Part shown: positions 1 to 17,983 of the stretch, in pieces
Layout: every line of letters starts with the position of its first letter
How positions within the stretch are numbered: position 1 is the stretch's first letter
DNA from: a virus
IMG/VR virus record: IMGVR_UViG_3300042691_010499
Location: 1-21,072 of that record
Direction: 5' to 3' (one strand)
Length of the DNA: 21,072 nt
Program-made: the position numbers and the translations under genes
Notes under the pieces: generated by a model
Database searches by the model: none
The model's input: only the letters and a program-made list of their open reading frames with translations
What the model was told of the DNA's origin: nothing

Positions 1-1172
1 GAGGCGTAGGCGGGCTGGTTGGTGGAAATGAACACCGAGATGTCCATGCGTCCGATGCCTGTGGAGGTGGCATCAAAGTTGGTCCACGCGAAGTACACGT
101 ACTGGCCGATGCCTGCGAACGCGGTGATCGGAGTGTTGATGTTGTTCAGCGGTCCGACGATGAGGTTGCCGTTGTCGTCTGCGGTGCACAAACGGAATCC
201 TGTCGTGGTGCCGATAACCACGTAGCTGAGATATCCGTAAATGGTCTGAATAATTTCGCCCTGCGGTAGCTCTGCGGCAACTGTTGGAATATCTAGCGCT
301 GTGCCGTCGGCCTTGATCGTTGTCTTGTAAATCAGACTGATGTTGCCTGCGGTTCCCGCCGCATAGATGTGGTTCTGTCCGGCAGCGAACCCAACCCATC
401 TGAAGTTGGAGTTCGGGTGCGCGTACAACGGGGACGGGTTATTCGCAGATGACCCTGGCGACGTGGTGATGTTCCAAATCTTGTGTTTGTCTGAACCCTG
501 ACCTGCGACCATGAGACGGCCTTTGACATACGACAGGTAGCCAGCCTCAATACCCGTGATGTACGCCGACGAGGTGGATACGACTGCGTTGGTTTGGTCA
601 ATGTCTCCGTTGGCGTACGAGTAGAACACGTTGTAGCCGTCTGAGGTGATGCTGTAAATGTTTGATGCCGCGGTGCCCGTCACCGTGGTCACGGTGTTGA
701 AGTCGGTGGTGAACTTCACGTTCTGACCGTCCGACCCGTAGAGGCGACCGTCGGCGGTGGTCGCATACAGGTTGCTGTTTGCTGACGAGTACACCTTCGT
801 CGTGTCCTTCAACAAGGACAGACGGCCCTTGCTCCAGACATTGATTCCTTTTGAGGAGTAGAACCTAAACGGCTCAGAGTCAGATGCATCTGAGTATTCC
901 TGGCCAGCTCCGTAATGCCACGACGACTGGGAGCGCCGCCACAAACCCTGGGGATTGATTGCGGATTCTCCGGGTTCGGCGGATTGGTCAACGGAGTCTC
1001 GGACTCGCGCATCAAATTGCCGGTTGAATTCGTTGGAGCGAAGATCAACCATGTACGGTCGTCCATTAATTGCCACAGGAAAAACATCTGGAACGAGCTG
1101 AGTTGAACCTGTTCCCGTGTAGTAAGCAGCTGCCGGGAAGTAGGCATTCGTAAAACGCCTGAGCGTAGTCAT
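1..1172 (-). CDS. Tail protein, beta-propeller-like (partial, 3' end off the window)
   Basis: The frame stays open from an ATG at 1172 to the left edge (390 codons), so the gene is incomplete and its C-terminus is missing. The start follows GGAAGTAGCG, a good ribosome-binding site, two bases after the stop of the upstream gene. After about 60 residues there is a Trp/Arg-rich stretch (LWRRSQSSWHYGAGQ). Repeated blade-like segments follow, such as LYATTADGRLYGSDGQ, IYSITSDGYNVFYSY and LIYKTTIKADGTALDIP, the pattern expected of a beta-propeller. Proteins of this type are recurrent in tailed phages near the neck and tail genes and are taken to be tail or tail-tube components. The exact role is inferred from position and fold pattern. 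No catalytic motif was recognised. Confidence 0.8.
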   Translation of the reverse strand, partial: MTTLRRFTNAYFPAAAYYTGTGSTQLVPDVFPVAINGRPYMVDLRSNEFNRQFDARVRDSVDQSAEPGESAINPQGLWRRSQSSWHYGAGQEYSDASDSEPFRFYSSKGINVWSKGRLSLLKDTTKVYSSANSNLYATTADGRLYGSDGQNVKFTTDFNTVTTVTGTAASNIYSITSDGYNVFYSYANGDIDQTNAVVSTSSAYITGIEAGYLSYVKGRLMVAGQGSDKHKIWNITTSPGSSANNPSPLYAHPNSNFRWVGFAAGQNHIYAAGTAGNISLIYKTTIKADGTALDIPTVAAELPQGEIIQTIYGYLSYVVIGTTTGFRLCTADDNGNLIVGPLNNINTPITAFAGIGQYVYFAWTNFDATSTGIGRMDISVFISTNQPAYA

Positions 1173-1174
1173 CG

Positions 1175-2059
1175 CTACTTCCTAAACTTGATTGGGTACT
1201 GAGCCTTCAGTCTTCCTGATTCAGCAATGATGCGTTCGCGGCGGAGCCTGAGGATGTTCGCAATAGAACTGGTGATTGCACCGGCTGGAACTTCTTCTGC
1301 CCTGCGCGTGTCTCCCTGAGCCTCTGTGAAGTTGCGCTTGATCTCTCGGCCAGCCATCATGCGCAGGATGACGCCCATCTCAACAATGTCATCACACGTT
1401 GACGGTAGAAAGCAGTTGGTCGTGAGATCGGATGACTCACTGCTGGCGCGTACAAACGGCGCCTTATATCTGACCCTGACATCTCCCGCCATGATTGACT
1501 CGTCAAACACGAGCGTGTTGCCAGACGGGAAGTCGGTGGTGGGCAGCCCGGTCTCAAGACGCACATTACGCACGACGGGGTGCTCATCGGTCAGGTAGCG
1601 AAGGCGCGCATCAAGGATCCCCAGGACAGTGCCAGAGTTCTCGATGTCAATCTGACGGTCGCTTCCGTTGTATTCCAGGTCGACACTTACGACGCGAAAC
1701 AAGCCGTTAGAAGACGAGGAAAGATCGTCAAGCTCTGAGTTGACTGCGTCAAACATCTGCGCCCGCGGAAAGCGCGGGCCAAGAGTGATCATCGCACCAG
1801 AGGTGTGAGACGTGGCCGCTGATCCCGCGTACCCGCGTTGTACCGTCAGTGACTTTGTGGAGGAGTTTGCTTCCCAGACATAGAAGAGTTCTGAGTCAAT
1901 TTCAAATACAGCACCAGCACGGATCCCGCCAAGATCGTAAGAGCAGATAACAGTGGTGTCATCTGCGTCAATAGTCGCCGCCAGTTTGTTCCGCTCTTCA
2001 ACGGTCCCCGCTAACATTTGGCGCGACGCTCGATTGAGGATCGTCGCAACGGTGGTCAT
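1175..2059 (-). CDS. Neck/tail adaptor-like structural protein, 294 aa
   Basis: This gene starts with an ATG directly after the TAA of the preceding tiny gene and is followed after two bases by the tail protein gene. The N-terminal third (residues about 30-95) is beta-rich and contains ELFYVWEA and VQRGYAGSAATSHTSG, a motif that recurs in phage neck and baseplate proteins. The C-terminal third is helical and basic: MMAGREIKRNFTEAQGDTRR at about 235-255, ending in KAQYPIKFRK. The family is familiar from many uncultured phages, but I know of no experimental function. The position between the capsid block and the tail protein suggests a head-tail connector or tail-tube adaptor. No transmembrane segment or signal peptide is visible. 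Confidence 0.75.
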   Translation of the reverse strand: MTTVATILNRASRQMLAGTVEERNKLAATIDADDTTVICSYDLGGIRAGAVFEIDSELFYVWEANSSTKSLTVQRGYAGSAATSHTSGAMITLGPRFPRAQMFDAVNSELDDLSSSSNGLFRVVSVDLEYNGSDRQIDIENSGTVLGILDARLRYLTDEHPVVRNVRLETGLPTTDFPSGNTLVFDESIMAGDVRVRYKAPFVRASSESSDLTTNCFLPSTCDDIVEMGVILRMMAGREIKRNFTEAQGDTRRAEEVPAGAITSSIANILRLRRERIIAESGRLKAQYPIKFRK

Positions 2060-2197
2060 TTAGTAGGTGTAGCCACCGTACCCAGGGAATGAACCTGCCT
2101 GAGCACGAGCAGCCTTGTTCGCCTTTCGTGACTTCTTCGTGGTCTTGGGGGAACCAGCCATTTCTTTAGCTGGCTTCCTCCCCTTGGACTTCTTCAC
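2060..2197 (-). CDS. Tiny lysine-rich protein, 45 aa (GTG start)
   Basis: The reading frame begins at a GTG that overlaps the TGA of the upstream gene (GTGA) and ends at a TAA touching the next ATG. The predicted product has 10 Lys, 3 Arg and one Glu. It starts MKKSKGRKPAKEMAGSP and ends in an aromatic, glycine-rich tail (SFPGYGGYTY). An internal ATG at 2161 would give a 33-residue product. A GGAGG lies upstream of that ATG, but about 15 nt away, which is rather far, so I prefer the coupled GTG. Function is unknown. The charge suggests binding to nucleic acid or to an acidic capsid surface, which is inference only. Confidence 0.6.
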   Translation of the reverse strand: MKKSKGRKPAKEMAGSPKTTKKSRKANKAARAQAGSFPGYGGYTY

Positions 2198-2316
2198 TTC
2201 TTCTTCTTGCCCTTCTTCATACCAGCCTTCTTGGAGCCGTATTCCATCATGCGCTCCTTGGGGCCCTCGGCCATCTCGTGCTTGCGGTTTTTGCCGCTCA
2301 TCTTTCCCTTGGCCAT
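2194..2316 (-). CDS. Tiny lysine-rich protein, 40 aa
   Basis: The ATG shares its A with the TAA of the previous gene (TAATG), and the TGA overlaps the GTG of the next, so the gene sits in an uninterrupted coupled chain. The product has 13 Lys, 2 Arg and 4 Glu and contains SGKNRKHEMAEGPKERMMEY. It ends in KKGKKKK, almost the same tail as the preceding 39-residue protein (GKGKKKK). No domain is recognised beyond a resemblance to short basic proteins seen in other phages. Length and composition alone would be weak evidence. Confidence comes from the exact stop/start coupling on both sides and from the gap of nearly 400 bases that would otherwise be empty in a tightly packed gene block. Confidence 0.6.
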   Translation of the reverse strand: MAKGKMSGKNRKHEMAEGPKERMMEYGSKKAGMKKGKKKK

Positions 2317-2435
2317 TACTTCTTCTTCTTTCCCTTGCCCATCTTCATGGTCTTGCCAGTCTTCTTGGCCTCAGCCTTAGCCATGGCCATACCCTTCGCG
2401 GTGTATGCGTATTCCTTTTTCCCAACCTTAGGCAT
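2316..2435 (-). CDS. Tiny lysine-rich protein, 39 aa
   Basis: The ATG at 2435 follows a strong ribosome-binding site (AAAGGAAG, then six bases), which makes this the entry point for translation of the three-gene tiny cluster. The product has 14 Lys and only 2 Glu (net charge about +12). It starts MPKVGKKEYAYTAKGMAMAK and ends MKMGKGKKKK. I recall similar short PKVG-start proteins in other phage structural operons, but no function is established to my knowledge. It may be a minor virion or DNA-binding protein, which is inference. Confidence 0.65.
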   Translation of the reverse strand: MPKVGKKEYAYTAKGMAMAKAEAKKTGKTMKMGKGKKKK

Positions 2436-2453
2436 GATCAACTTCCTTTCGTC

Positions 2454-2726
2454 TCACCACTTTACCTTATTGGCCCAGTAGGCCGCAGACATCTTACCCT
2501 TGGCGATGTTCTTGGCGTGGCGAGCCTTGAAGGATTCGCGGCGCTTTCGGTATGACTCGGACTCGCCCTTTTTCTTGGGTGATCCAGATACGCCCTGCTG
2601 CCCAAAGCGGATCAGCTTCACGCGGCTGCCCTCTTTGGCTAGGACGGCATGTGACTTGGTGGCGTTGGGCGTACGCTTCGGCTTGTTGTAGCCAGCAAAC
2701 TTCTCGCCCCTGTATTCGATTGTCAT
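2454..2726 (-). CDS. Conserved basic phage protein, 90 aa
   Basis: The start overlaps the stop of the upstream gene (TAATG). The protein is strongly basic and ends with a characteristic block: KARHAKNIAKGKMSAAYWAN, followed by KVKW. Before it come KSHAVLAKEGSRVKLIRFGQ and a Lys/Arg-rich linker. This C-terminal signature recurs in small proteins of many unrelated phages, usually near capsid or tail genes, so the family is real even though its role is unsettled. An Arg-His plus Trp-containing basic tail would fit nucleic-acid or protein-interface binding (inference). No cysteine cluster is present here, unlike related forms that carry one. Confidence 0.75.
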   Translation of the reverse strand: MTIEYRGEKFAGYNKPKRTPNATKSHAVLAKEGSRVKLIRFGQQGVSGSPKKKGESESYRKRRESFKARHAKNIAKGKMSAAYWANKVKW

Positions 2727-2959
2727 TAGTCCGCTGTCTTTTCCAGACGGGCCGATCCGTCTATCTGTGTCGGCTGCCCACCCGACTGGCGGATGCGCTT
2801 GTATGCGTCAAGATCCTTGTCTAGACGGCGTTCTTTTAGGTTCATGTCCCTTACATTGCCCCTGGTTGGGGTGGCTGCACCAGACACTCCGACGTGTGCA
2901 ATGCGGCATGCAAAGCAGCCCTCGACATCAAGATTCGGGTGTGTTTCCCTGTGTTTCAT
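2726..2959 (-). CDS. Small protein with zinc-knuckle-like CxxC motif, 77 aa
   Basis: The ATG at 2959 follows GGGGATT, just after the TAG of the repeat-rich gene, and the stop overlaps the next start (TAATG). The N-terminus, HPNLDVEGCFACRIAHVGVS, contains His7, Cys15, Cys18 and His21. These could bind one zinc ion, although this is not a proven site. The rest is charged and probably helical (MNLKERRLDKDLDAYKRIRQ), followed by a short acidic/polar end. Similar short proteins with HPNLDVEGC are common in phages of Actinobacteria, which mildly supports that host group. The function is unknown. Confidence 0.7.
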   Translation of the reverse strand: MKHRETHPNLDVEGCFACRIAHVGVSGAATPTRGNVRDMNLKERRLDKDLDAYKRIRQSGGQPTQIDGSARLEKTAD

Positions 2960-2965
2960 AATCCC

Positions 2966-4576
2966 CTAGCTGACGTATGCGCCGTATCCGGCGGCGGTGA
3001 GGTCTTCCTTCTCTTGCTGCGTGATCGGGTTCTCGTGGCCGCCGTAGTAGATCTTGACGACAACTGAGGGATCGCGCTGCTCGTTCTCAGTGTACGTACC
3101 GTTTGTGAGCTTGTAAACATTCTTGCCGCGCTCGCCCGGGGTGAGGTACCGAAAGAAACGATTGGCAATTCCGTATCCCTGGTAGTCGGCCCAACGAACA
3201 ACATCGTCGGTAGGTGGGCGGAAGAACATGACCTTTGCCCATGTAGCCGCAGTATCTGAACCCGTGCCGGATCCAGTCGCCGTCCGGCGGTATACCTTCC
3301 TGCCACTGCCAGTTTCGGTTCCAGCGCCAGAGCCAGTCGACGCACGGAAGTGTTCGCGTCTGAATGCGGCAACTGATTCCCCAGTCCCAGATCCAAATGC
3401 TTGCCTAACTGCACCGAACGTTGATTCGTCCGTGTGTGTTCCTGCGCCAGAACCAGTTGCCGTTCTGATGTTGATGACTAGGCGCGTAGCACCGCCGCCA
3501 CTTGAACCCGCACCAGAACCCGTGGCACTACGAGAAAGGATTTCAAAGTATGCAACCGAAGCAGAGCCGGATCCAGACCCGGTGGCCGTGCGCGGAGCAA
3601 TGTGCAACCCAGATGCTGTCTGTGTCCCAGCGCCGGAACCAGTTGCTAGACGTGCCGATACGCCGAGGAAAAACGCTGGGGCCGGGTCATAGTACGCAGA
3701 CGCGAAAGACGTCTGACGTTCTGTTGAATACCTGGTTGGTGACTCAATCTCTGCCCTGCCGAAATACCCGGGGGTATTTACAAAAGCAAACTGAAAGTCT
3801 GAAACTTGATTTCCGCTTGGGTTGGCTTGGATTGCGGCGTATTCCGAGCCAGTCCCACTGCCAGTCGCTGTTCTTGTTGTTACAGAAAGAACTTCGGTGA
3901 GTTCAAAAAGTATAATTGCTGTTGACGTGTTTGCGGCAACACTCGTTGTGAAATTTTGCGCAGTTGTGCCTCCTGTGGGATTTTTCCATTGGGAAACAAC
4001 GGTCATCGATGTCGAGGAAGTACCAGTATCTGCGACCTCGGAATAAAGAGTTGACCAAGCGCCTCTAGTAATATCGCCGTCAGCGGTTACAGTTGCGTTT
4101 GTTGCCCATCCCTGTGCTCCGATTGCCGAATTACCAGCGTTAATAGTCATGCTTCTGTTCAAAGAGGTGGAAAGTTGTGCATTACCACTTGTTGCATAGA
4201 CGGACGCCTTGTAACCGCTTGGTGCAACAAGCTTCCAAACGAGTATTGCTTTACTTGTCGTGTCTGGTGAAAAATTTACGGTGAGCGTGTCAGATGTTGT
4301 AAGCGCAGTGGTCACATGGCACAAAAAAACCGACAATGTCGTACCAGCGTTAGCAGCACCGGGATCATGATTTTGTGTTCCTGCTGTCGTCCAGGTGTTC
4401 GACTTCGAATCCGAAATCCCACTAGTGGATGAAGCGCCATTTGTCCCGGCATTGTCCGCCGCAACAATGGCAAACACTGTGTCCCCGACAGCGAATGACG
4501 CAGTAAGCGTCACCGTCAAAGACGACGACGACGTTGTTGAGTTGGCTTTGCCAGCCTCTGTGATTGTCAGGGCCAC
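2966..4576 (-). CDS. Repeat-rich fibre-like or decoration structural protein, 536 aa
   Basis: Translation begins at a GTG (4576) with AGGT nine bases upstream, 14 bases after the preceding gene. Residues about 1-230 are Thr/Ser-rich and beta-sheet-like, resembling a jelly-roll or adhesin module. Residues about 233-445 hold eight copies of a TGSGxG motif (for example RTATGSGTGS, RLATGSGAGT, RSATGSGAGS), separated by variable segments of mostly 12-25 residues, with one longer gap. The C-terminus (about 450-536) is a separate module ending KIYYGGHENPITQQEKEDLT then AAGYGAYVS, a tail seen on many phage structural proteins. It is likely exposed on the virion as a fibre, decoration or receptor-contact protein (inference). 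The flexible Gly/Ser repeats could act as hinges. Confidence 0.7.
   Translation of the reverse strand: MALTITEAGKANSTTSSSSLTVTLTASFAVGDTVFAIVAADNAGTNGASSTSGISDSKSNTWTTAGTQNHDPGAANAGTTLSVFLCHVTTALTTSDTLTVNFSPDTTSKAILVWKLVAPSGYKASVYATSGNAQLSTSLNRSMTINAGNSAIGAQGWATNATVTADGDITRGAWSTLYSEVADTGTSSTSMTVVSQWKNPTGGTTAQNFTTSVAANTSTAIILFELTEVLSVTTRTATGSGTGSEYAAIQANPSGNQVSDFQFAFVNTPGYFGRAEIESPTRYSTERQTSFASAYYDPAPAFFLGVSARLATGSGAGTQTASGLHIAPRTATGSGSGSASVAYFEILSRSATGSGAGSSGGGATRLVINIRTATGSGAGTHTDESTFGAVRQAFGSGTGESVAAFRREHFRASTGSGAGTETGSGRKVYRRTATGSGTGSDTAATWAKVMFFRPPTDDVVRWADYQGYGIANRFFRYLTPGERGKNVYKLTNGTYTENEQRDPSVVVKIYYGGHENPITQQEKEDLTAAGYGAYVS
3250..3880 (-). repeat. Eight imperfect repeats coding for TGSGxG motifs
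   Basis: On the plus strand the units read as variants of CCAGAGCCAGT or CCAGAACCAGT within CCxGxxCCxGT blocks, irregularly spaced along about 630 bases. The encoded peptide motif [RS]xATGSG[AT]G[ST] is better conserved than the DNA. Synonymous codons differ between copies, so selection appears to act on the protein rather than this being a recent tandem duplication. Confidence 0.75.
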
Positions 4577-4590
4577 GAAGGGCTACCTGT

Positions 4591-4953
4591 TTAGTCCAGC
4601 GACAGAGTCAGCGTGGTGATCTGGAAGGTGTCTCCAGCAGTAACCGCAGCAGATGAGGAGAGTGCGCCAGTCCACAGGCAGTTGCCGCTCGTGCTTGCAT
4701 CCCAGAGCGACCAGTGCGTGTAGGTCTCCGTGCTGGAAACGTTCGTCCACTCTGCGGTTCCAGATGTGGCCATGCTGCCGCTTGACGCAGCGCTCCACGA
4801 AACAACCTTACGCGTTGCTTCAGTTGCGGCGTTGTTCGTGCCAGCTTCGCCCGGGTCGCCAGTGTGCAACTTGATGTAAGTGTTCGCAACGGAGAACGCC
4901 GTGTTCGAGAGCGTCTCAAGCAACTTGTTCTCAGCGTAATTCGAAATCGACAT
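4591..4953 (-). CDS. Small virion structural protein, 120 aa
   Basis: The ATG at 4953 has GAGAGG five bases upstream. It is the first gene after the capsid terminator and an extended -10 box. The sequence opens with a helical stretch (SNYAENKLLETLSNTAFSVA) followed by IKLHTGDPGEAGTNNAATEA, a motif (LHTGDPG, then a Thr/Ser-rich beta region) recurrent in phage minor structural proteins next to the capsid gene. The remainder is beta-rich with Trp and Ser/Thr repeats. It may decorate the capsid or form part of the tail tip. I assign it only as structural. No cysteine pair or membrane segment is seen beyond a single Cys. Confidence 0.65.
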   Translation of the reverse strand: MSISNYAENKLLETLSNTAFSVANTYIKLHTGDPGEAGTNNAATEATRKVVSWSAASSGSMATSGTAEWTNVSSTETYTHWSLWDASTSGNCLWTGALSSSAAVTAGDTFQITTLTLSLD

Positions 4954-4969
4954 GATTACCTCTCGTCTG

Positions 4970-4978
4970 AATATAGCA
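4970..4978 (-). promoter_or_regulatory. Extended -10 promoter box upstream of the 120-aa gene
   Basis: The minus strand reads TGCTATATT directly after the terminator stem, matching an extended -10 element (TGN TATNNT). No -35 hexamer is visible, since that place is taken by the GC-rich terminator. Predicted transcription would start about 10 bases before the ATG. It matches the boxes at 6561-6569, 17973-17981 and 20786-20794. Confidence 0.45.
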
Positions 4979-5016
4979 GAAAGGGGGCGGGCCGAGGGGA
5001 GAACGACCCGCCCCCC
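4977..5016 (-). terminator. Rho-independent terminator after the major capsid gene
   Basis: A perfect 9-bp GC stem (GGGGGCGGG at 4983-4991 pairing with CCCGCCCCC at 5007-5015) encloses a 15-nt loop. It is followed on the minus strand by TTTCT and preceded by an A-tract. On the plus strand the stem is followed by ACTTTTTCT, so it could stop transcription in both directions. It lies 20 bases after the capsid stop codon, the usual place to cap a highly expressed capsid transcript. Confidence 0.8.
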
Positions 5017-5034
5017 ACTTTTTCTACTGGTTGC

Positions 5035-6003
5035 TTACGAGGCGTTTGCGCCGATGCTCGACGAGCTCTCGATGCGACGGAGCGACGCTTCGCGGAAGCG
5101 AGCGTAGCCACCGAGCCAGTACCAACCGACGGGCTGGAAGCGCTGCAGCGAGTCAACCACCGGTCCGCGAATCACGCGCGGGAACGGTCCGTTGCCATCG
5201 ACAATCGAGTGCGCCTTTGCAAGCGCCTGACGGCCCATGATGTGCGTGCAGTACACGTCGATGTTGCCCGTGCTGCCAGCTCCGTCCGACGCGTTCTCGA
5301 AGATCTTCGCGCGCGGCGTCTCAATGAAACGCACGCCTTCGAAGGCTCCGACTTCGCCGTTGTAGATGTTGGCCGGGTCGCTGTACACGTGCGGGTCGCG
5401 CCAAGAGGCAACGCCCGTCTCGCGACGAAGATCGTACGACACGTCGGGGTGGATGAAGCCCATGTACATGCCATTGAACGACACCGAGTTCGCCTTGCGG
5501 AGAGCGGCGACGATCTTGCGGACGTCGTTCGCCTCGATGATGTCTTCGGCTTCGATCGCCGTGCGGGAGGTCTCGTCCGATGAGCCGCCACCGCCGTAAA
5601 CGACGTTGGTGCCAGCGGCGAGGACATCGCGGATGATCGAGTCAATCGAGATACCTGCGTTGTAGCCAACGACGTTCGCCGCAGCAGCGTCGACGTCGAG
5701 GAACGACGTGCCACGCAACTTGGCGGTCGTGTTGACCGCATTGCCGTATTCGGCCAGGGTTACTTCGACCTGGCTGTCGGACATCGCAACTGCGCTGACA
5801 TCCGAAGTTTCGGTCAGAGCCGTGGTCGCCGCAGCAAGATCGTTGAAGATCGTGAACTTGACGGACGAACCAGGCATTGCCTGGGCGACCGGCATGACGT
5901 CCGCAACCGCGTCGAACAAAAGTTCGCTGCGGAGTGCGAAATACGCAATCCGGTCAAATGCAACCTGATCAGTGAGCAGGCTGCTTTGCTGTGTGTATGA
6001 CAT
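5035..6003 (-). CDS. Major capsid protein, N4-gp56 family-like, 322 aa
   Basis: This is the main shell protein of the head. The sequence shows the pattern of the N4-gp56 capsid family, an HK97-fold group: FDRIAYFALRSELLFDAVAD near residues 16-35, MPGSSVKFTIFNDLAAATTA at about 44-63, then LAEYGNAVNTTAKLRGTSFL and DVDAAAANVVGYNAGISIDS. The middle has FNGMYMGFIHPDVSYDLR, and the end has VGWYWLGGYARFREASLRRI. Length fits the family. The gene follows the scaffold gene after 42 bases that include a weak hairpin (CCCCG/CGGGG), and a terminator follows it. The ribosome-binding site is weak (GGGGGA lies 13 bases before ATG). No prohead protease gene is visible nearby, so assembly probably relies on the separate scaffold. 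Confidence 0.92.
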   Translation of the reverse strand: MSYTQQSSLLTDQVAFDRIAYFALRSELLFDAVADVMPVAQAMPGSSVKFTIFNDLAAATTALTETSDVSAVAMSDSQVEVTLAEYGNAVNTTAKLRGTSFLDVDAAAANVVGYNAGISIDSIIRDVLAAGTNVVYGGGGSSDETSRTAIEAEDIIEANDVRKIVAALRKANSVSFNGMYMGFIHPDVSYDLRRETGVASWRDPHVYSDPANIYNGEVGAFEGVRFIETPRAKIFENASDGAGSTGNIDVYCTHIMGRQALAKAHSIVDGNGPFPRVIRGPVVDSLQRFQPVGWYWLGGYARFREASLRRIESSSSIGANAS

Positions 6004-6045
6004 ACCTGTTATTTCTTTCCCCCGACAGGCGCGGGGTCCTGCGGG

Positions 6046-6498
6046 CTAGATATTGCCTAGTTGGTTAGCCTGAGCCAGCAGCTGCATCACTTCGTCTTGA
6101 CTACGAGCCTGATTGATCTTCGTGTGGAGATCCAGTTCCTGATTGGCGGTCTCACTGGCGTTGCCTGCACGCTGCAGTCTGTCCCAGGCTCGCTTCTCGG
6201 AATCGTCCGCAACCTCTTTCTGGGTGGGCTTGAGAATCTGAGCCTCTTCAGCTGCTGCGCGAATAGCCTCGGGTGAGATCTCGCCTTCGTAACCCTTGAT
6301 GAAGTACTTGGCAACCGGAGCATTCACATCAATGCCTGCTTCGGCAAACGCCATCTTCCTCTTCAAGGATTCGAACTCCGCTGCCTGCTGACGAAGGAGC
6401 TTGTTTTCCTGCTCCATCTTCTTCAGGTGTGCGCGGACGGGATCCTTGTGCGACTGATCGCTCGTCTCGTCGTCGAACTCATCGATGACATCTGACAT
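6046..6498 (-). CDS. Capsid scaffolding protein, 150 aa
   Basis: The position immediately before the capsid gene, the size and the composition all fit a scaffold. Residues 1-25 are acidic. Residues 25-50 form a predicted coiled coil (HLKKMEQENKLLRQQAAEFE). A conserved-looking block follows (FAEAGIDVNAPVAKYFIKGY). The C-terminal half is charged and helical and ends AQANQLGNI. The ATG has a strong ribosome-binding site (GGAG, six bases upstream). Scaffolds chaperone shell assembly and then leave or are degraded. A dedicated promoter with an operator-like palindrome lies 60-90 bases upstream, so scaffold and capsid appear to form their own transcription unit. Confidence 0.82.
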   Translation of the reverse strand: MSDVIDEFDDETSDQSHKDPVRAHLKKMEQENKLLRQQAAEFESLKRKMAFAEAGIDVNAPVAKYFIKGYEGEISPEAIRAAAEEAQILKPTQKEVADDSEKRAWDRLQRAGNASETANQELDLHTKINQARSQDEVMQLLAQANQLGNI

Positions 6499-6560
6499 GG
6501 CTCACTCCGTTTCTTTCTGCCCACTTCCCAGAGGAGGTCCGAGAAGGCTGCGTTATGGAA

Positions 6561-6587
6561 ACTATAGCACAAGACCCATTGTGTCAA
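6561..6587 (-). promoter_or_regulatory. Promoter for the scaffold-capsid unit (TTGACA / TGCTATAGT)
   Basis: On the minus strand a perfect -35 box TTGACA (6587-6582) is separated by 15 bases from a -10 box TATAGT (6566-6561), which is preceded by TGC to make an extended -10. Transcription should start near 6554 and give a leader of about 55 bases before the scaffold ATG. This is the best promoter in the window and starts right after the TAA of the preceding gene. Confidence 0.75.
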
Positions 6588-6590
6588 TGG
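6576..6590. promoter_or_regulatory. Perfect inverted repeat over the -35 box (possible operator)
   Basis: The sequence CCATTG-TGT-CAATGG (plus strand) is a perfect 6-bp palindrome with a 3-bp spacer. It contains the whole TTGACA hexamer of the scaffold-capsid promoter on the other strand. A dimeric regulator binding here would block or modulate RNA polymerase. No regulator gene is present in the window. Confidence 0.5.
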
Positions 6591-7646
6591 TTACTGCGCG
6601 GTTCCTACTCCGGTTTCCACAGAGCCCGACGTCGCACCGCTAGTGGCCGCGAATCGGCCACCACCGGAAAGTGCTGCAACGCGGGCTTTCTTGCGGCGCT
6701 CGATCTCAGCCTTGGCTGCCTCGTCATAGCCAAATGCGGCACCGAGCTGTTGCTGCTGTGTGAAGGTCTCTTCGGCCATGCCGGGGAGCCCACCGAAGAG
6801 CTCGCGTTGCTGGGCGATGGTGCTGAATTGCTTCTGGGCCTCAGCCATCGTGACACCACGCGCGGCCAGGTCCTCGGCGGTCTCCGCGGTCAGCTTCAGG
6901 CCAGCCTGCTCGGCGGCCCTACCAGCGATCTTGGCAGCCGTGGCGCGACGCTTCAGCATCGTGATGCTCTCGCTCGGGTTCAGGAAGTAGGCCACGAGGT
7001 CTTTGTCCTCGACCTGGTAAAGCTCTTTCATCTGGGTCTTGGTGGCGGCGTCTGCGTTGACAACCTCGTTATACGCATCTGACACCCGGTCGTAAAGCTC
7101 CTGGGGGGCAACGTCGCCAGCCATGAGCTCCTCGAAGATGTCCTGGCGGTTGAAGTAGTCCAGCATGCCAGCCGAACGCAACGCCTCGCGGTAGGAGCGC
7201 TCAAGGCCAATGTAGGTGGCCGGGGCCAGGGCTGGCAGGCCGTTGGCAGCCCGCTTCACATTGGCGGCAAAACGCTTCTGGTAAGCCTCAGTATTTCGGA
7301 TCTCGTAGATAACCGATGTTGGCTCCTTGACGCCACGAGCCAGCAGCTCGTTGATCTTGTCCTCCATGTCGTCCAAGCCGAACTCCGACAGGTACGCCTT
7401 GATGCGTGAGAAGGCATTCTCTACTGTTGGGTCGAGTGCCTCTTCGTCTTCGCCATCGTCATCTGGGGTGAGGTCGACGCCATAGAGGGGGTCTCCCCAC
7501 TTGCGCCCGTACTGGTCGTCTGGTTTGTCCTGGTTGGTCTCATCGGGCTTCTTGACTTCCGGGGGCGTGAACCTTTCGCCCTCGAACGGGGTATCAACCC
7601 CGATCATGCCCTCTGATGCTGCGCGCTGGTAGTTGACGTCACTCAT
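6591..7646 (-). CDS. Putative internal virion/structural protein, 351 aa
   Basis: The start overlaps the stop of the preceding gene (TAATG). Residues 1-70 are acidic, proline-rich and probably disordered (KKPDETNQDKPDDQYGRKWG). Residues 75-290 are helical, with AFSRIKAYLSEFGLDDMEDK, IYEIRNTEAYQKRFAANVKR and a later block around VAYFLNPSESITMLKRRATA. The C-terminus is Gly/Ser/Thr-rich. This architecture matches a conserved protein found in many phages close to capsid genes and a very large virion protein. I know of no experimentally fixed function. It is probably packaged inside the head or at the connector (inference from order). Confidence 0.7.
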   Translation of the reverse strand: MSDVNYQRAASEGMIGVDTPFEGERFTPPEVKKPDETNQDKPDDQYGRKWGDPLYGVDLTPDDDGEDEEALDPTVENAFSRIKAYLSEFGLDDMEDKINELLARGVKEPTSVIYEIRNTEAYQKRFAANVKRAANGLPALAPATYIGLERSYREALRSAGMLDYFNRQDIFEELMAGDVAPQELYDRVSDAYNEVVNADAATKTQMKELYQVEDKDLVAYFLNPSESITMLKRRATAAKIAGRAAEQAGLKLTAETAEDLAARGVTMAEAQKQFSTIAQQRELFGGLPGMAEETFTQQQQLGAAFGYDEAAKAEIERRKKARVAALSGGGRFAATSGATSGSVETGVGTAQ

Positions 7647-8596
7647 TAGATCTGCGTCCCGAATGTTCTCTCAAGAATGCTGATTAGGTTTGCCGCCTCT
7701 GTCTTGGCCTCGCGGGTGTTCTGCCACCCGTACTGCGGATCCCTGCGGAGCATGTATGCCCATTCGTCGGGGCTGAGGCTTTCACCATTGGCGTTCTTCT
7801 GTAGGGCGCGGGAGAACTTCTTGTCCGTGACCTTGATGTCAAACTTGTTTATATCCAGGGTACTGGCTGCGATCTCTCGGTAAGGCTCAAAGACGTCTTC
7901 CATGCTGTAGCCCTGGTCGAGCTGCTGCGAGAACTGCGGGTACATGATCTTTGCGTAGTCACGAGCCTGCTTCATCAGGCCCTCTTCCGTATAGGTGATG
8001 CCCGAGTATTCGGTCCCGGTCAACGCTGACTGAATGCGCTTGTCCAGATTCGGCGGGGAGTAGCCGTATGCGTTAAGTGCCTCGCGAAGCGCGCCAGCCA
8101 TGTCAGTCTGCTCAAGAGTCGGGGCTCCGTCACGAGCAGTTTGGCGATCCGGAATTACCGAGTACGCGTAGTACCTCGTCTGAAGCTCACTTGCCTTGTT
8201 GCTCAGGGCATACGTAGCAATCTTGGTGAGCTGGCTGTCATCAAGCTGGAGTTCACCGAATGTCTTACGCAACTCAACAATCTTGTTGTCAAGCTGTTCC
8301 TGCTTTGTGGCCGGGGGGAGGATTGCCCACTCGCGACGACTAGGACCGACTTTGGTGTAGAGGTTGGTTGCCTGGACTTTTCTTGCCCACGCATCCCGGC
8401 CAGCCTGGCTATCAAGATCGTATTGATCGGGGTTGTTTGCGTAGTCAAGGAGTAGGTCAACAAAGTCACCACCGAGCTCCCGGCGTGCTGCTGCTTCGCC
8501 TTCTCCGCCGTCGACAATGGACGCGTAGTTGGGGAACTGCGCAATGAAGTTTGCGCGCCAGTCAACCGGCTTTTTCTTCTTGTCTTTAGCAGCCAT
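7646..8596 (-). CDS. Putative internal virion/structural protein, 316 aa
   Basis: TAATG overlaps join this gene to both neighbours. The N-terminus is lysine-rich (MAAKDKKKKPVDW). The body is largely helical and charged, with DAWARKVQATNLYTKVGPSR at about 67-86 and KIVELRKTFGELQLDDSQLT at about 105-124. A Trp-rich section near residues 277-291 contains WAYMLRRDPQYGWQNT. No enzyme motif, signal peptide or membrane segment is seen. It resembles, in size and helix pattern, one of the accompanying proteins that tailed phages encode beside a giant internal protein. A chaperone or internal core role is possible. The assignment is by context. Confidence 0.65.
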   Translation of the reverse strand: MAAKDKKKKPVDWRANFIAQFPNYASIVDGGEGEAAARRELGGDFVDLLLDYANNPDQYDLDSQAGRDAWARKVQATNLYTKVGPSRREWAILPPATKQEQLDNKIVELRKTFGELQLDDSQLTKIATYALSNKASELQTRYYAYSVIPDRQTARDGAPTLEQTDMAGALREALNAYGYSPPNLDKRIQSALTGTEYSGITYTEEGLMKQARDYAKIMYPQFSQQLDQGYSMEDVFEPYREIAASTLDINKFDIKVTDKKFSRALQKNANGESLSPDEWAYMLRRDPQYGWQNTREAKTEAANLISILERTFGTQI

Positions 8597-9354
8597 TACT
8601 GACCCAGCGCCTCAAACGCGACTGACATTGCCTTGCCCAATCCATACGCAACACGTTGCGAAGGATCTGCCTGCTGGGCGAATTCCTTTGCTACAAGTCC
8701 CGTCTGTGGGGTCTGCTGGCCGCTGGCATAAGCACCACGTTCACGGCTGCGGATGAAGCTGGCCGCCTCGGCAAGCTCCTTCTTTGTCGGCATGCGGCCA
8801 AGCTGCTGGAGAAAAAGCTCGCGGCTGTAAGCCATGACGTCCTCATCTGAACTAACGCGGATTGACGGTCCGCTTGTCTGGCCGCTAAGTCTGTTGAGGT
8901 AGCCAATTGCAACATCGATGGTCACCCGGTTCTGGTTTGCAAAGTTAAGAAGCTGAGCCCAAGCTTTTTCGTCTTGGTTGCCCCAGCCCAGACCCTCGCG
9001 TAACTGCTCGCTGACCTCGGAATCCCCGTACCAGCCAATGCGCTTGAGTTCTTCGGAGATCGTGACCTTTTGTTCGGTTGTGAACTTCGGGCTGGTCAGC
9101 GTCTTGTAAACAGTAAACGGATCGGAGAGGTCGTACTCCTGTGCGGCCACACGTCCATCGGCATCAAAGAGGACTGGACCCTGGATGTAGCGGGTCTGCG
9201 CAACGGTCTTTGCCTTGCCGCCGCTGTAGTAGATCTTGACTCTTCCGCTCTCCTGGAGCGACTTGATCTCTGCCTCGCTCATGGACGAGGAGTAGCCATT
9301 GAATACAACCGGCTGATGGTTGCTAAGCCCTGGGATTGTAAGGTCTTCTGCCAC
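8596..9354 (-). CDS. Putative virion-associated protein, 252 aa (GTG start)
   Basis: An ATG at 9390 would overlap the 1707-residue gene by 37 bases. I prefer the GTG at 9354 because it forms the same TAGTG stop/start overlap as the upstream junction and has AGGAAG ten bases upstream. The product then begins MAEDLTIPGLSNHQPVVF. An N-terminal beta segment carries VKIYYSGGKAK. The C-terminal half is helical, with DEDVMAYSRELFLQQLGRMP and TKKELAEAASFIRSRERGAY, a shape reminiscent of conserved phage proteins encoded with large internal virion proteins. No catalytic residues were identified, and the function is inferred only from position. Confidence 0.65.
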   Translation of the reverse strand: MAEDLTIPGLSNHQPVVFNGYSSSMSEAEIKSLQESGRVKIYYSGGKAKTVAQTRYIQGPVLFDADGRVAAQEYDLSDPFTVYKTLTSPKFTTEQKVTISEELKRIGWYGDSEVSEQLREGLGWGNQDEKAWAQLLNFANQNRVTIDVAIGYLNRLSGQTSGPSIRVSSDEDVMAYSRELFLQQLGRMPTKKELAEAASFIRSRERGAYASGQQTPQTGLVAKEFAQQADPSQRVAYGLGKAMSVAFEALGQ

Positions 9355-12300
9355 TAGATGTCCACTTCCTGAACCAAGAAACGCTGCCAAACTCTATCAA
9401 ACTCTGGGTTGCGCGCTGCGATGGCTTCGCCGTATCGGTACAGCTCGTATCTTGCGTTGGCTGACTTCTTGGACTGGAAGCTCACGAGATCACCGGATCG
9501 CATCAGAGCAGCACGCCGAGTCAGATAGCCGCGAACCAAGGACGCAATCTCGTTGCCCTTCAGTCTCGGGTCCTCAACCAACTTGTACATCTGGTCAATG
9601 TCGTTGGTCAGTTTGTTCGCTTCGAACTGCGCGCGCTTGGGGAAGCCCGGGAGTTTCTGGTTGAGATATTCGCGGTAGTTGCGGAGAATCTCAATCTGCT
9701 TGTCATTCGGGTTGGCACCGAACATACGTCTGGCTGAGCGATACTTGATTGAGCCGAGGCGCTGCTGGGCGAGCTCAATCATTTCCTTATCAGTCAGCTT
9801 CTCTCGGCTGCCCTCCTGCAACTGACGTTGCCAGACGGTGAAGTCAAAATCACCGCCGCCGCGGGGGGCCATGAAGTAAGCGGTATCTGGGTACTGGTTG
9901 ATCAGGTCTTTGTTCTCGCGCTCCCATGCACCGAACTCGTAGGTCGCTTCAAGACCCTGGGCTACGGCGCGGCTCTTCGAGCTGACGTACAGCAGGAGAT
10001 CCTCGCCGTACAGCTTGAGGAACTTGTCAACCGCAGTGTCGTAGTCCTCGGACTCAAACTGACGAAGCTCCTTCTGGAGTTCGTTGACGAACTTGTCGCC
10101 CTGCTTTGTCGGAACCTGGAACTCGGGGGCCGGGGAGGCCGGGCCGGTGAACTGGCCAAGAGCGCGCATGATGGTGATAACCCCAGCAAATTTCTTTGCA
10201 TCGGCCATCAGCTGCGTCTGGCCCTCTTCCGTAGACAGGTCATACTTTGCCGTATTGACGGACAAGGCGCGGAGTGTCTCCATGTATGTATTGCCATAGG
10301 TGGTGTTCATCGCCACCTTGTTTGTACGAATGGCATCGACTACCGGCAACATTTTTTGTAGCCACGAGGGGACTGGGTTTGCGGCATCGGCCATGCTGAC
10401 TTCTCCGTATGGAAGCAGCAGTGTCTTTACCTGGTCGTACTTCGGCACATCAGGCAGGATCGAAGACAGCGAGAAGCTGGCCCATGGCCCAAGGGCGGGA
10501 TAAAAGCTGATGCCCTGCGAAAGCCTGTTCAACGGTGCGGCAAGTGGCGCGCTGATGCCGGTAAACAGTTTTGTGATTGTGCCCGACATCGGGAAAGTGA
10601 ACATCTGCTCGCCCGTAGTCGGATCCTGATAGATGAAGCCGCGACCGTCTTGGTCTGGGTCGGCTTCGGAAACACCGCGGTACACCTTGTGGAACTGACG
10701 GTACAGGTGGATGTTGTCCTCAACTGCGAGCTTCATGTACTGGCTGAGAACATCTCTCCATGCGGCTTCGAACGGTGCAATGATCCGCATCGCATCCTGG
10801 TAGTTCCTGCGGAACGACGCGTTGTACAACAGGTTCTTGGTTTCCTCAATGCCGACAAATCGCGAATAGTCATCGAGCTCCTCGACGGTAAGTGTGCCGG
10901 TGACGCCCTTGCGCTTCGGCAGATTCTCAATTGCATCTGTCACCTGTCGGCGCAACTTGCTTTCACCGAAGTATGCGCGGATATTGCCGTTTGACTTCTC
11001 GTAGATGTCCGCGTACAGCTTCATGCCCTCTTCGTACGACAGCTGATCGATGTGCTTGACCACCTCGTCGTAGTAGTACTGGCGGAACACTACGGACTTC
11101 TCAAGCTTTCGTGAAGCCATATCGTAAAGATTGAACCACCAACCAGTGGCTTTTTCCATTCCGCGTACGGCAGTTTCGTCGAGTGAGTCAAGCTTGCTAT
11201 TTGCCCGGTAGTGCATGCGCTGTTCACGCGGATAAGTAACTGCGAGTCCCTTGCCCTGTGCGCTGTCGTAAAGCGGAGCGTCATCAATCAGTCTGCGTGC
11301 TTCTTTCGCGCCAAGACCGTTGAAGCCAGCAGTTGCAGCATTCTCTTTGAGGATGGGGACAAACGTAACGGTATCGCCGTCAATCCTCTGGATGATCCCC
11401 TTCACTTCATTGCCGTCGATCTCAAGCTTGCGCGTCTGGCCAATGCTCAGTTTCTCCTTGGCCTTGAGCGGGAAGGCAGACGCGCTTACAACCTGTGCGT
11501 TCTTCAGATCGCCAACTGCGTTGTGGGCAAACAAGAAAACGATGTCGTCAAGTTGGCCCGTGTCATACTTGATGCCATCAATGACAACTGTGCGGATGTA
11601 GTCGTTAAGGACTCTTCGGTATAGTTCTGGCTGGGCGGTTTTGAGTTGGCGCAGGAAAATAGGCGGGAACTGCTGAAGGGAGTCGGTGGCGCGATCGTAG
11701 AATTCGAGCCCTCCAGCAAAAAGTCCATCGAGGCGCTTGAACGTGTCGGTCCGATCGTTATCGAGGAATTTAATTACTTCCTCGACGATCTCATCGTCAG
11801 TCTTTCCCGCGCTAAGCGAGAGCAGGACCCTGTTGTCCAGAGTTTCAGAAAGTCGCTTTTGCGCAGACTGGATAACTCCGTCCGTGTGGTACTGCTTCTT
11901 GTATCCCTTCGGACCACCTGCTCTATCAAACTGAACAAATGAATTCGACTGCCTGCTGTGCAGCATTTTGTCTTGGAGCGTAAATCCAGGCCGCATCGCC
12001 GCAACGTCGAATGCCTCACGGAGCTGCTCAAGAGCACGGCTTGGGCTTGTCTCTTCCCAGGCGCGGGGGCGCACACCGGCCACCGCCAACGCGCGTCCCT
12101 CTTCTGCGGCGGTTCGTGCAGCACCAGCACCAAGGTCAGTGAAGTCAACGCCGGTAAGGCTCTTCCCGAATCTGGCACCAACAAATGTGTTGATGTAGTC
12201 GACGGGGTGGCGGAACTGGTTGACTCCGCCGGTTGCCATTCGAACCTGAGCATCAAGCATGTTTCTGAGCGCGTAACCACCGGTAGCCAAAGTGGCCATC

Positions 12301-14477: not shown

Positions 14478-14854
14478 TAAAACGCCCCATAGCGAGACAG
14501 GAGATCTTCGAGATCCTCGCTAGGGAACATTGCAGCGATCTGGCGGATCTCCTGAAGTGCCATCTGACCGTCGTTCATCATCGGCATTCCAGCCTGGAAG
14601 GTGTTAGGTCCAGGGCCAAACGGTGCTCCCGCTGTGATTGGTTCATCCGGACGCAACGTCGGCGCCGTGATTGATGTCAGTTGTCGACGCGCTGGCTTTG
14701 CTGCTTGCGCTGCAGAAACTTCAGCTGGTGATGCACCCATCGGGACGATTGACTGCGCGTCGAGCTGTTGCTTTGCTCGTCCGTAGGTCTGCCCTTTGGC
14801 TGCTGATTTAGCAATCCTCTGTGCGGGATTCTGTAGATCAAATCGGTTCGCCAT
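14477..14854 (-). CDS. Small proline-rich structural protein, 125 aa
   Basis: The ATG follows a very good ribosome-binding site (GGGAGG, five bases upstream) and lies one base after the portal stop. The first 40 residues are basic and helical. Residues about 45-90 are Pro/Ala/Gly-rich and probably disordered (ITAPTLRPDEPITAGAPFGP). The end is a short amphipathic helix (MALQEIRQIAAMFPSEDLED). Proteins with the TAPTxRPDEPITAG-type linker occur beside portals in related phages. It may bridge the portal and the internal proteins encoded next, but this is inferred from order. The stop overlaps the GTG of the giant gene. Confidence 0.6.
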   Translation of the reverse strand: MANRFDLQNPAQRIAKSAAKGQTYGRAKQQLDAQSIVPMGASPAEVSAAQAAKPARRQLTSITAPTLRPDEPITAGAPFGPGPNTFQAGMPMMNDGQMALQEIRQIAAMFPSEDLEDLLSRYGAF

Positions 14855-14855
14855 C

Positions 14856-16613
14856 TCATCCTCCCAACTGACTCAGGAGCTGCTCAAGGCTTGGTTCGCC
14901 AGTGGGTCCAGCAACCGGAGCCTCAGCACCCATACCAGGCATTGCCAATCCTGGCATCGTCTCTGGGGCTCCCATCGGCATCGCTGCCGCTTGTCGTTCT
15001 TGTGCCCTGCGGTTTGTCGCTTCTACTGCTTCGTACAGAGTCACATCGTTTTCCATCACCAGTTTAGTGAGGTACGCAAGATCTTCAGGCTGATACGGGC
15101 CATTCGGATCGACCGCTTGCTGTTGGATGCTTGACAGCAGTGCAGCCTCAACGCCTTCGGAGATGATGCGGTCGTGTTCGAACTCTGGGTCGGTGATGAG
15201 CGGATCTGCTTCGCGGGCGGTTTCCTTACTCATGAGTCCGGTGCCGAGTCGCTGACCGAGTCCAACGATCAGCGAGTTGACGTCAGATCCTGCAGCCGGG
15301 TAGGTGACGTAGTGGAAGTCCGTCTCCCAGACCTTGTTTGGGATGTACGTTTCAAGACCAGCGGACGCGCGCGAAGCCATGAAGAACAGCTTGGGCGTCT
15401 CACCCCAGTACGCCTTTTCAAGTGCGATTGCAATCTTGTCTTCTTCGAGCAGCGAGTTCTCGAATACAGCCTGAGCTTCCTGAACGCGGAAGTCAACGGT
15501 TGCCGACAGCACGTTCTCACCACGGCGGCCAGTTCGGATGTTGGTCGCCGATTCACCGCCGAACTCGGCAGGGATGGCGCCTTCAAGGCGCTCCTGGCGC
15601 TCAAGGCGATCGAGCGCTTCGTACGTCTTGTAGCCCGGGTTCAAATCCTGGCTACGAATGTCGCCGCCGCGGACAACGCCGAGAATGCCACTCTTGCTAT
15701 CTGCAAGCTGGATGATCTCCGGGTTTTCGCCAGTACGCGCAACCAGATATTCCTCAGGGAAGATGCCGCGCTCGATGGCAATCTCGGTCAGGGCCTGCAG
15801 GCGTGCGCGGGTGTAGTACATGCCAAGTACGCCGTCGAACTGACCGCGGTTCTTGTCAAGTGTGATTCGGCTGGCCACAACTGCAAGGGGCAATCCGGTG
15901 CGATTGGGGATTCCCTCAAGCATCATTTCGCTCATGCCAGCGCGCTGTGCGGGGCTGAGCTCGGGGTCGTCTTCTGCACCAAGGACCACGAGCTGCAATG
16001 CATCGCGCGATACATACTCAAGCAGCGTGTACTTGGAGTCGGTGTCCACTTCGCCCATGCGAAGCTGGCCGGATACGAGTTCTCCGTAGTTCTTCAACAA
16101 CCACGAAGCTGAAACTTTGTGGGTGAAGATGCAGTCCTCGGGCAAAATGTCGTCCTGGTCCTCAACGGGCGCAGGGTATGTATCGAGCGGATTGCGAACA
16201 ACCCACTTGGGCATGAGCGTGCGGAAGTCGGGCTTGATGAATACAGCCGACTGCGAGTACGCAAGCAGGTGGCGGGCGCGACGACGCAGCTTCATCTGCA
16301 TCTTGTTGTGATCCCAAAACGCGAGCGTTGCCTTGCGGCGCATGCGGGCGTAGCTCTTTGAGCGCTCCGACCCGTCCTTCAGCGGCGGGAAGTAAGCCAT
16401 AGGCATTGTTGACGAGATGCGCATCGACATCTGATCAAGGCCCGTTACAAGCAAGTTCGCAACGTTTGACTTGGCAGAGCGATCAAGTTCGTTTAGCGGC
16501 ACGATGACTTCGCCGTTGGCTAGGTCGCGCACACGGCGCATCTGCTCGAACACGGGCCCGAGCTTCATCTGGCGCTGTCGGTACAGCTCGACAATCTCTA
16601 GTGCGTCAAGCAT
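14856..16613 (-). CDS. Portal protein, 585 aa
   Basis: The portal forms the dodecameric ring at the head vertex through which DNA is packaged and leaves. The N-terminal region shows the usual portal pattern: GPVFEQMRRVRDLANGEVIV near 18-38, then NVANLLVTGLDQMSMRISST at about 50-69. Beta-rich wing segments follow, and a long helical segment around LDRLERQERLEGAIPAEFGG. The C-terminus is disordered and Met/Pro/Gly-rich (AMPMGAPETMPGLAMPGMGA). Length is typical. The start overlaps the upstream stop (TAATG), with AAGGGA nine bases before it. Location one gene downstream of the terminase agrees. It could be confused only with another large structural protein. I consider the call firm. Confidence 0.82.
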   Translation of the reverse strand: MLDALEIVELYRQRQMKLGPVFEQMRRVRDLANGEVIVPLNELDRSAKSNVANLLVTGLDQMSMRISSTMPMAYFPPLKDGSERSKSYARMRRKATLAFWDHNKMQMKLRRRARHLLAYSQSAVFIKPDFRTLMPKWVVRNPLDTYPAPVEDQDDILPEDCIFTHKVSASWLLKNYGELVSGQLRMGEVDTDSKYTLLEYVSRDALQLVVLGAEDDPELSPAQRAGMSEMMLEGIPNRTGLPLAVVASRITLDKNRGQFDGVLGMYYTRARLQALTEIAIERGIFPEEYLVARTGENPEIIQLADSKSGILGVVRGGDIRSQDLNPGYKTYEALDRLERQERLEGAIPAEFGGESATNIRTGRRGENVLSATVDFRVQEAQAVFENSLLEEDKIAIALEKAYWGETPKLFFMASRASAGLETYIPNKVWETDFHYVTYPAAGSDVNSLIVGLGQRLGTGLMSKETAREADPLITDPEFEHDRIISEGVEAALLSSIQQQAVDPNGPYQPEDLAYLTKLVMENDVTLYEAVEATNRRAQERQAAAMPMGAPETMPGLAMPGMGAEAPVAGPTGEPSLEQLLSQLGG

Positions 16614-17962: not shown

Positions 17963-17972
17963 GGCTAGTTAA

Positions 17973-17981
17973 AAGATAACA
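17973..17981 (-). promoter_or_regulatory. Extended -10 box upstream of the 449-aa gene
   Basis: TGTTATCTT on the minus strand sits in the short gap after the terminase stop. The hexamer TATCTT ends ten bases before ATG, so transcription would begin only about four bases upstream of the start codon. No convincing -35 hexamer is visible. The flanking sequence (GTGYTATCTTTT) matches the box before the 278-aa gene. Confidence 0.5.
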
Positions 17982-17983
17982 CA

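Follow-up and report, generated by a model that had tools for sequence, protein, structure and literature searches.

Three lysine-rich open reading frames of 39, 40 and 45 codons (F1, F2 and F3) stand in a row in an IMG/VR virus record of 21,072 bases, which was used at its full length and is referred to as the window, and they raise the question whether frames this short are genes at all and what a phage would use them for. Bases 1-19,900 of the window recur in a 39,722-base record with a printed identity of 100%, which makes a genome length of about 40 kb probable. At its other end, the longer record repeats window positions 1-1243 in a copy of 84% identity; it may be an assembly made circular by joining two strains. 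All genes discussed in the window are read on the minus strand (Table 1).

Table 1. Features of the window discussed in the text, with positions counted from its first base.
Feature	Position	Strand	Description
F1 mini-gene	2316..2435 (2435-2316)	-	39 aa, ATG start, net charge +12
F2 mini-gene	2194..2316 (2316-2194)	-	40 aa, ATG start, net charge +11
F3 mini-gene	2060..2197 (2197-2060)	-	45 aa, GTG start, net charge +12
F4 gene	2454..2726	-	90 aa, net charge +18, PHROG 7595
77-aa gene	2726..2959	-	net charge +3, PHROG 24600, upstream partner of the cassette
294-aa protein	1175..2059	-	PHROG 7578, downstream neighbour of the cassette
536-aa protein	2966-4576	-	many TATGSGAG-like motif repeats
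120-aa head protein homologue	4591..4953	-	PHROG 240, E 1.1e-36
Major head protein	5035..6003	-	PHROG 1357; Pfam Phage_capsid_3
Portal protein homologue	14856..16613	-	PHROG 104, E 1.2e-10
449-aa protein	16613-17962	-	net charge +45, adjoins portal gene

The first-pass annotation had described the three frames as a chain joined by TAATG and GTGA overlaps, opened by one ribosome-binding site and preceded by two other small genes of 77 and 90 residues, the latter strongly basic. The overlaps are exact, a Shine-Dalgarno-like AAGGAAG is found at F1, both preceding genes are present with the 90-residue product (F4) strongly basic as described, and the computed charges of F1-F3 agree with the +11 to +12 first given. 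The two near-identical (K)GKKKK tails read GKGKKKK and KKGKKKK, and the stop of F3 abuts the ATG of the 294-residue gene at 2059. Elsewhere in the window, the C-terminal stretch of the 536-residue protein matches PHROG 8987 and 23524, and the 449-residue protein, which found no match in NCBIfam, is possibly another basic internal protein.

Very short open reading frames often arise by chance, and this is the one point in favour of regarding F1-F3 as unexpressed and their lysine runs as incidental. Searching with the 294-residue neighbour as query yielded 80 related loci, and at least 120 stretches of viral sequence matched a degenerate pattern built on the start of F1. Profile searches over all frames of 204 loci, some of which are the same contig, recovered F1 in 157, F2 in 42 and F3 in 82 of them; the census of the 77-residue family in these loci may have drifted. 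On disjoint closest pairs of homologues, dN/dS amounted to 0.13 for F1 (33 usable of 36 pairs), 0.19 for F2 (9 of 10) and 0.11 for F3 (18 of 18), alongside 0.07 for F4 (29 of 34) and 0.09 and 0.10 for two further families, F7 (18 of 20) and F8 (22 of 25). Codon changes gather at the third position, with 432 against 142 and 147 at the first and second positions in F1, 107 against 50 and 47 in F2, and 207 against 51 and 46 in F3. Stops or shifts in homologous phages had been named as the observation that would count against the genes; the frames are instead kept under purifying selection (dN/dS 0.11-0.19).

The arrangement of the genes is conserved as well. A four-nucleotide Shine-Dalgarno core is present at 102 of 115 F1 starts in relatives, and the signal at F3 starts does not rise above that of shuffled sequence, which fits translational coupling. 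In all 28 close F1-F3 pairs, the two genes share exactly 4 or 1 bases at their junction, and among 363 close cassette junctions 191 show an overlap of exactly 4 or 1 bases and 272 have no gap. Set against the dN/dS values, the conserved junctions and a full-length profile match of F1, the idea of unexpressed frames is practically out of the question and, as far as coding conservation goes, has been refuted. Judged from their sequence conservation, F1, F2 and F3 are real genes, translationally coupled and commonly overlooked. The expectation that gene callers miss such genes is borne out by phage SIO1, where an F4 relative is present without an annotated gene, and by MW202462, where a mini-gene resembling F9/DUF6496 (locus L083, 3422-3610, E 9.4e-25) lies in a gap with no gene annotated. 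Cyanophage KBS-S-2A likewise contains an unannotated lysine-rich frame of 22 codons (locus L082, about 5716-5784) that shares a GTGA overlap with the next annotated gene.

Each of the three products has its own conserved residues. F1 matches PHROG 33179, a family of function listed as unknown, with residues 1-39 on profile positions 1-38 of 42 (E 9.6e-16), and bears the signature MPKVGKKE[YF].YT..G...A. No GTDB genome contig matches the F1 pattern exactly, which fits virulent phages, and tblastn with F1 found no match in cultured phages; phage MEP402 has an F1-like gene of 37 residues that is recognizable by eye and escapes the F1 model. One contig (L143) carries two F1 copies, at 4504-4620 and 5025-5144, and is the sole such contig among the matches listed. 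F2, for which PHROG and Pfam gave no match, is built around the core HE..E..KE..MEY, with H13, E14, E17, K20, E21, M24, E25 and Y26 invariant. In F3, which has no PHROG match, the basic first half is variable and the aromatic C-terminus is conserved (AQAGSFPGYGGYTY), with A, Q, G, S, G and Y of AQAGSFPGYGGY invariant in an alignment of 19 rows. The five small window proteins gave no Pfam match above the cut-off and none in NCBIfam, the histone, HU/IHF and protamine families included.

The shared lysine tails had been taken to suggest a duplication, a claim that did not hold up, as the profiles of F1 and F2 show no homology (hhalign probability 0.6%). Duplication of one into the other is rejected on this ground, the double F1 of L143 being a different event. 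The tails differ in length and letters among relatives, so that their likeness looks like convergence on lysine runs.

The region holding F1-F3 turned out to be a site of exchange, where tiny basic genes of at least nine families are combined in many ways, among them F5 (PHROG 17747), F6 (PHROG 14910), F7 (DUF6321, PHROG 4689), F8 (PHROG 34011) and F9 (DUF6496). We propose that slot A would hold F8 or the pair F5 and F6, slot B either F4 or F7 (DUF6321), slot C one or both of F1 and F2, and slot D F3, with the families replacing one another within a slot while the function of the slot would be kept. Co-occurrence was counted over 153 contigs with at least two families, repeats removed and contigs with fewer left out. 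F4 is found in 87 and F7 in 55 of them, with no contig carrying both (Fisher 6e-31, a P value that ignores shared ancestry like all those for co-occurrence); F5 occurs in 41, in every one alongside F6 (45 contigs), and F8 in 67, never together with F5 or F6.

As shared ancestry is ignored by these P values, a tree of the 294-residue proteins was used. In the corresponding group of 68 contigs, which includes the window and two near-identical copies, F4 is present in 39, F7 in 28 and neither in 1, leaving exactly one of the two in 67. Parsimony on the tree of 81 proteins (62 different), built by a quick method with 18 of 59 inner branches well supported, requires a minimum of 15 changes in slot A, 12 in slot B and 23 in slot C, and only 4 well-supported independent pairs are available for associations between slots. 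Repeated swapping within slots is well supported by the tree, the exact number of events less so. The total charge of 56 complete cassettes is less variable than that of independent slot shuffles (P 0.0064, shared ancestry ignored), an argument to which we give little weight. The joint, slot-exclusive cassette is undescribed in the PHROG and Pfam catalogues, where the families are listed singly and mostly with function unknown, F2 and F3 having no family.

To place the cassette, 20 flanking proteins, hand-picked from 16 contigs, were assigned by PHROG. Eleven belong to head and packaging: five are major head proteins, four of them of the same type as that of the window and one of another type; four are terminases, and a portal protein and a scaffold or head-assembly protein make up the rest. 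The others are one tail fibre protein, three members of the 294-residue family PHROG 7578, three non-structural proteins (a glycosyltransferase, RusA and photosystem D1) and two without a match. In HTVC201P, F7 and two other basic mini-genes lie between the scaffold and capsid genes; F7 follows the major capsid gene in P-SCSP1a, F7-F5-F6 stand ahead of the terminase in MEP402, and F4 lies two genes before the coat gene in KBS-S-2A. Pag-Yong1 has the order F8-F7, and in HTVC033P F5, F6, F7 and further basic mini-genes adjoin an amidase gene, not a head gene. At three loci (L007, L012 and L053) a glycosyltransferase-like gene, a call for which Pfam and PHROG matches were tested in L053 only, precedes the cassette in place of the 536- and 77-residue genes.

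The best functional clue is provided by fusions of F4, which point to the head. F4 matches PHROG 7595 with residues 2-90 on profile positions 6-96 of 96 (E 2.4e-38) and also PHROG 220, a family of minor head and DNA pilot proteins (E 1.1e-5); its C-terminus is conserved and closes with RR.SF.ARH...W. Foldseek against viral models linked F4 to ORF125 of phage ICP1 and to proteins named XkdF and ChaB. ORF125, called a capsid protease in several ICP1 records, carries a Peptidase_S78_2/XkdF domain at residues 36-160 (Pfam E 6.6e-10), matches a head maturation protease PHROG (E 6.1e-13) and contains F4 at 184-261 (E 5.8e-11), C-terminal to the protease domain; the head decoration gene is found two genes away and the major head gene three genes away. 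The F4 domain matches ORF125 with E 2.7e-16 and Aeromonas phage phiA009_0107, which is encoded close to a capsid gene, with E 3.8e-19. In both of these F4 sits inside a larger protein that is not strongly basic, whereas the window has it as a free, basic protein of 90 residues, with no Peptidase_S78_2/XkdF domain and no Pfam match above the cut-off. As the F4 domain of ICP1 is not strongly basic, with +5 in its C-terminal part, the F4 fold is not mainly a polycation.

Very high lysine content would also suit proteins that bind RNA or DNA inside the cell, for example at host ribosomes or the nucleoid in late infection, and that merely ride in a late operon. The predicted F4 model (pLDDT 77.5) has no PDB fold match at E up to 0.001, and the best PDB match of the F4 profile, ribosomal L24, fits this explanation and is not significant (E 0.47). 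With head-gene neighbours in unrelated phages and the F4-protease fusion of ICP1 against it, we consider it very unlikely. A role in the head is favoured by neighbour genes and domain fusions, and the reading we narrowly lean towards is a late, coupled and slotted cassette of small basic head-associated proteins that would enter the procapsid and touch DNA or the inner shell with their lysine-rich parts. We infer that these are head-interior accessory proteins, some of them binding DNA.

The alternative partner of F4 in slot B allows a comparison with virion data. F4 and F7 give a weak profile match (hhalign probability 3-8%), and their predicted N-termini differ, with strands in F4 and helices in F7, but both models have a long helix followed by a short one and a tryptophan at their C-terminal end. 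The DUF6321 model (pLDDT 82.9) has no PDB fold match at E up to 0.001. A C-terminal motif R..[SNAT]F.AR, picked after looking at the sequences, occurs in 96 of 109 F4 and 62 of 71 F7 frames and in 11 of 52,955 others, so the two may share a C-terminal module and perhaps distant homology. Next to DUF6321, another basic mini-family (GLYANIHAKRKR...) is found repeatedly (L212, 3201-3377; L206, 3337-3483), and its P-SCSP1a member finds matches in 84 phage records. In T4-like cyanophages, DUF6321 stands at the end of large basic proteins near the terminase genes, such as Syn9 gp114 and an 880-residue protein of ACG-2014f.

Virion detection of DUF6321 proteins is mixed, with one found and one missed. 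S-CREM2 gp137 (108049-109521), with DUF6321 at its C-terminus (E 3.5e-10), is listed among the virion proteins in the available part of PMC10665884, identified by 4 unique peptides (4.1% coverage); these peptides may stem from outside the DUF6321 domain. S-SZBM1_192, a protein of 165 residues and +22 with a DUF6321 domain, is absent from the 30 detected virion proteins in Table 1 of PMC9146016, which is weak evidence because trypsin cuts such proteins into very short peptides. None of 13 screened proteins of siphophage P-SS2 (first 24 kb) matches F1-F9, and the small virion-detected ones among them are acidic. The available text of the P-SCSP1u cryo-EM paper mentions neither gp14 and gp15 nor hypothetical or small proteins, and no virion proteomics was found in that of the cobavirus paper.

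Instead of staying in the head, the products could be assembly or packaging factors that act on the procapsid or terminase and are absent from the mature virion, like scaffolds or chaperones. The fusion of F4 to a head maturation protease protein in ICP1, the cassettes that adjoin the terminase in MEP402 and separate the scaffold from the capsid gene in HTVC201P, and the missing S-SZBM1_192 (PMC9146016, Table 1) would all suit such factors, but S-CREM2 gp137 was detected in virions according to PMC10665884 in its available part. Lysine-rich tails are, moreover, generally atypical of scaffolds, and we regard this explanation as rather unlikely.

Small basic proteins packaged in the head are known from T4, whose internal proteins IPI-IPIII are released together with the DNA. 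They share with the cassette small size, basic character, linkage to head genes and variation between phages; PHROG and Pfam scans gave no homology to them, F1 matching only a family of unknown function. By analogy, the products could be ejected host-takeover or anti-defence proteins, for which fast modular turnover, as expected of host-directed cargo, and the position near head genes speak. The five small window proteins found no match in PADLOC, a weak test as its library covers defence and not counter-defence, and the strict one-of-two slot occupancy is more in keeping with structural equivalents than with an arms race, which leaves ejected effectors distinctly improbable.

For head-interior accessory proteins, the products would enter the procapsid via specific conserved cores or C-termini, with the RR.SF.ARH...W end of F4, the HE..E..KE..MEY core of F2 and the aromatic GSFPGYGGY tail of F3 as proposed entry signatures, and the lysine-rich parts would contact the DNA or the inner shell when the head is packaged, matures or ejects its genome. 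F3 resembles the microvirus J protein in its general plan, in which a short basic part at the N-terminus is followed by an aromatic C-terminus. J belongs to small icosahedral ssDNA phages, whereas a portal homologue and a major head protein of tailed-phage type are encoded in the window, and for F3, which has no family match, capsid anchoring is putative.

A mere polycation is unlikely given the conserved MPKVGKKE of F1, the F2 core, AQAGSFPGYGGY of F3 and the F4 C-terminus. Bulk charge neutralisation as the sole function is likewise not favoured, in view of the invariant F2 residues and the F4 domain of ICP1. The combined charge of F1-F4 is +53, and at an assumed 415 or so copies of each protein, as in a T=7 shell, they would bring about 22,000 charges to the roughly 80,000 phosphates of a 40-kb genome; by this arithmetic, which is not evidence, they could matter and would not neutralise the genome.

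A cationic virion protein that condenses the genome of a dsDNA virus is described for ascoviruses (P64; PMC6163548, available part); such condensation is one of the putative roles first proposed for the mini-genes, beside charge neutralisation and binding to the head-tail joint. P64, likened here by description only, is one large arginine/serine-rich protein, while the cassette makes several tiny lysine-rich ones. In the available part of PMC7096446, tailed phages with motor packaging are described as having no genome-scaled positive domains of the kind found in other viruses, the charge of their DNA being balanced with the help of counter-ions and polyamines. No description of such cassettes was found in the freely accessible literature searched, and within the same scope DUF6321 is unmentioned and DUF5872 is mentioned.

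If true, head-interior accessory proteins would turn a gene class often skipped by annotation into a widespread component of the heads of marine and freshwater phages, and the strict rule of F4 or DUF6321 offers a functional lead for DUF6321. A conserved and exchangeable set of basic proteins encoded near head genes would make the view of ions and polyamines directly testable. We think it unlikely, but worth stating, that aquatic tailed phages might possess a modular, chromatin-like kit of replaceable tiny basic proteins, with their own procapsid-entry signatures, that would coat the packaged DNA or line the head; if true, this would depart from motor-packaged phages managing the charge of their DNA by ions and polyamines alone.
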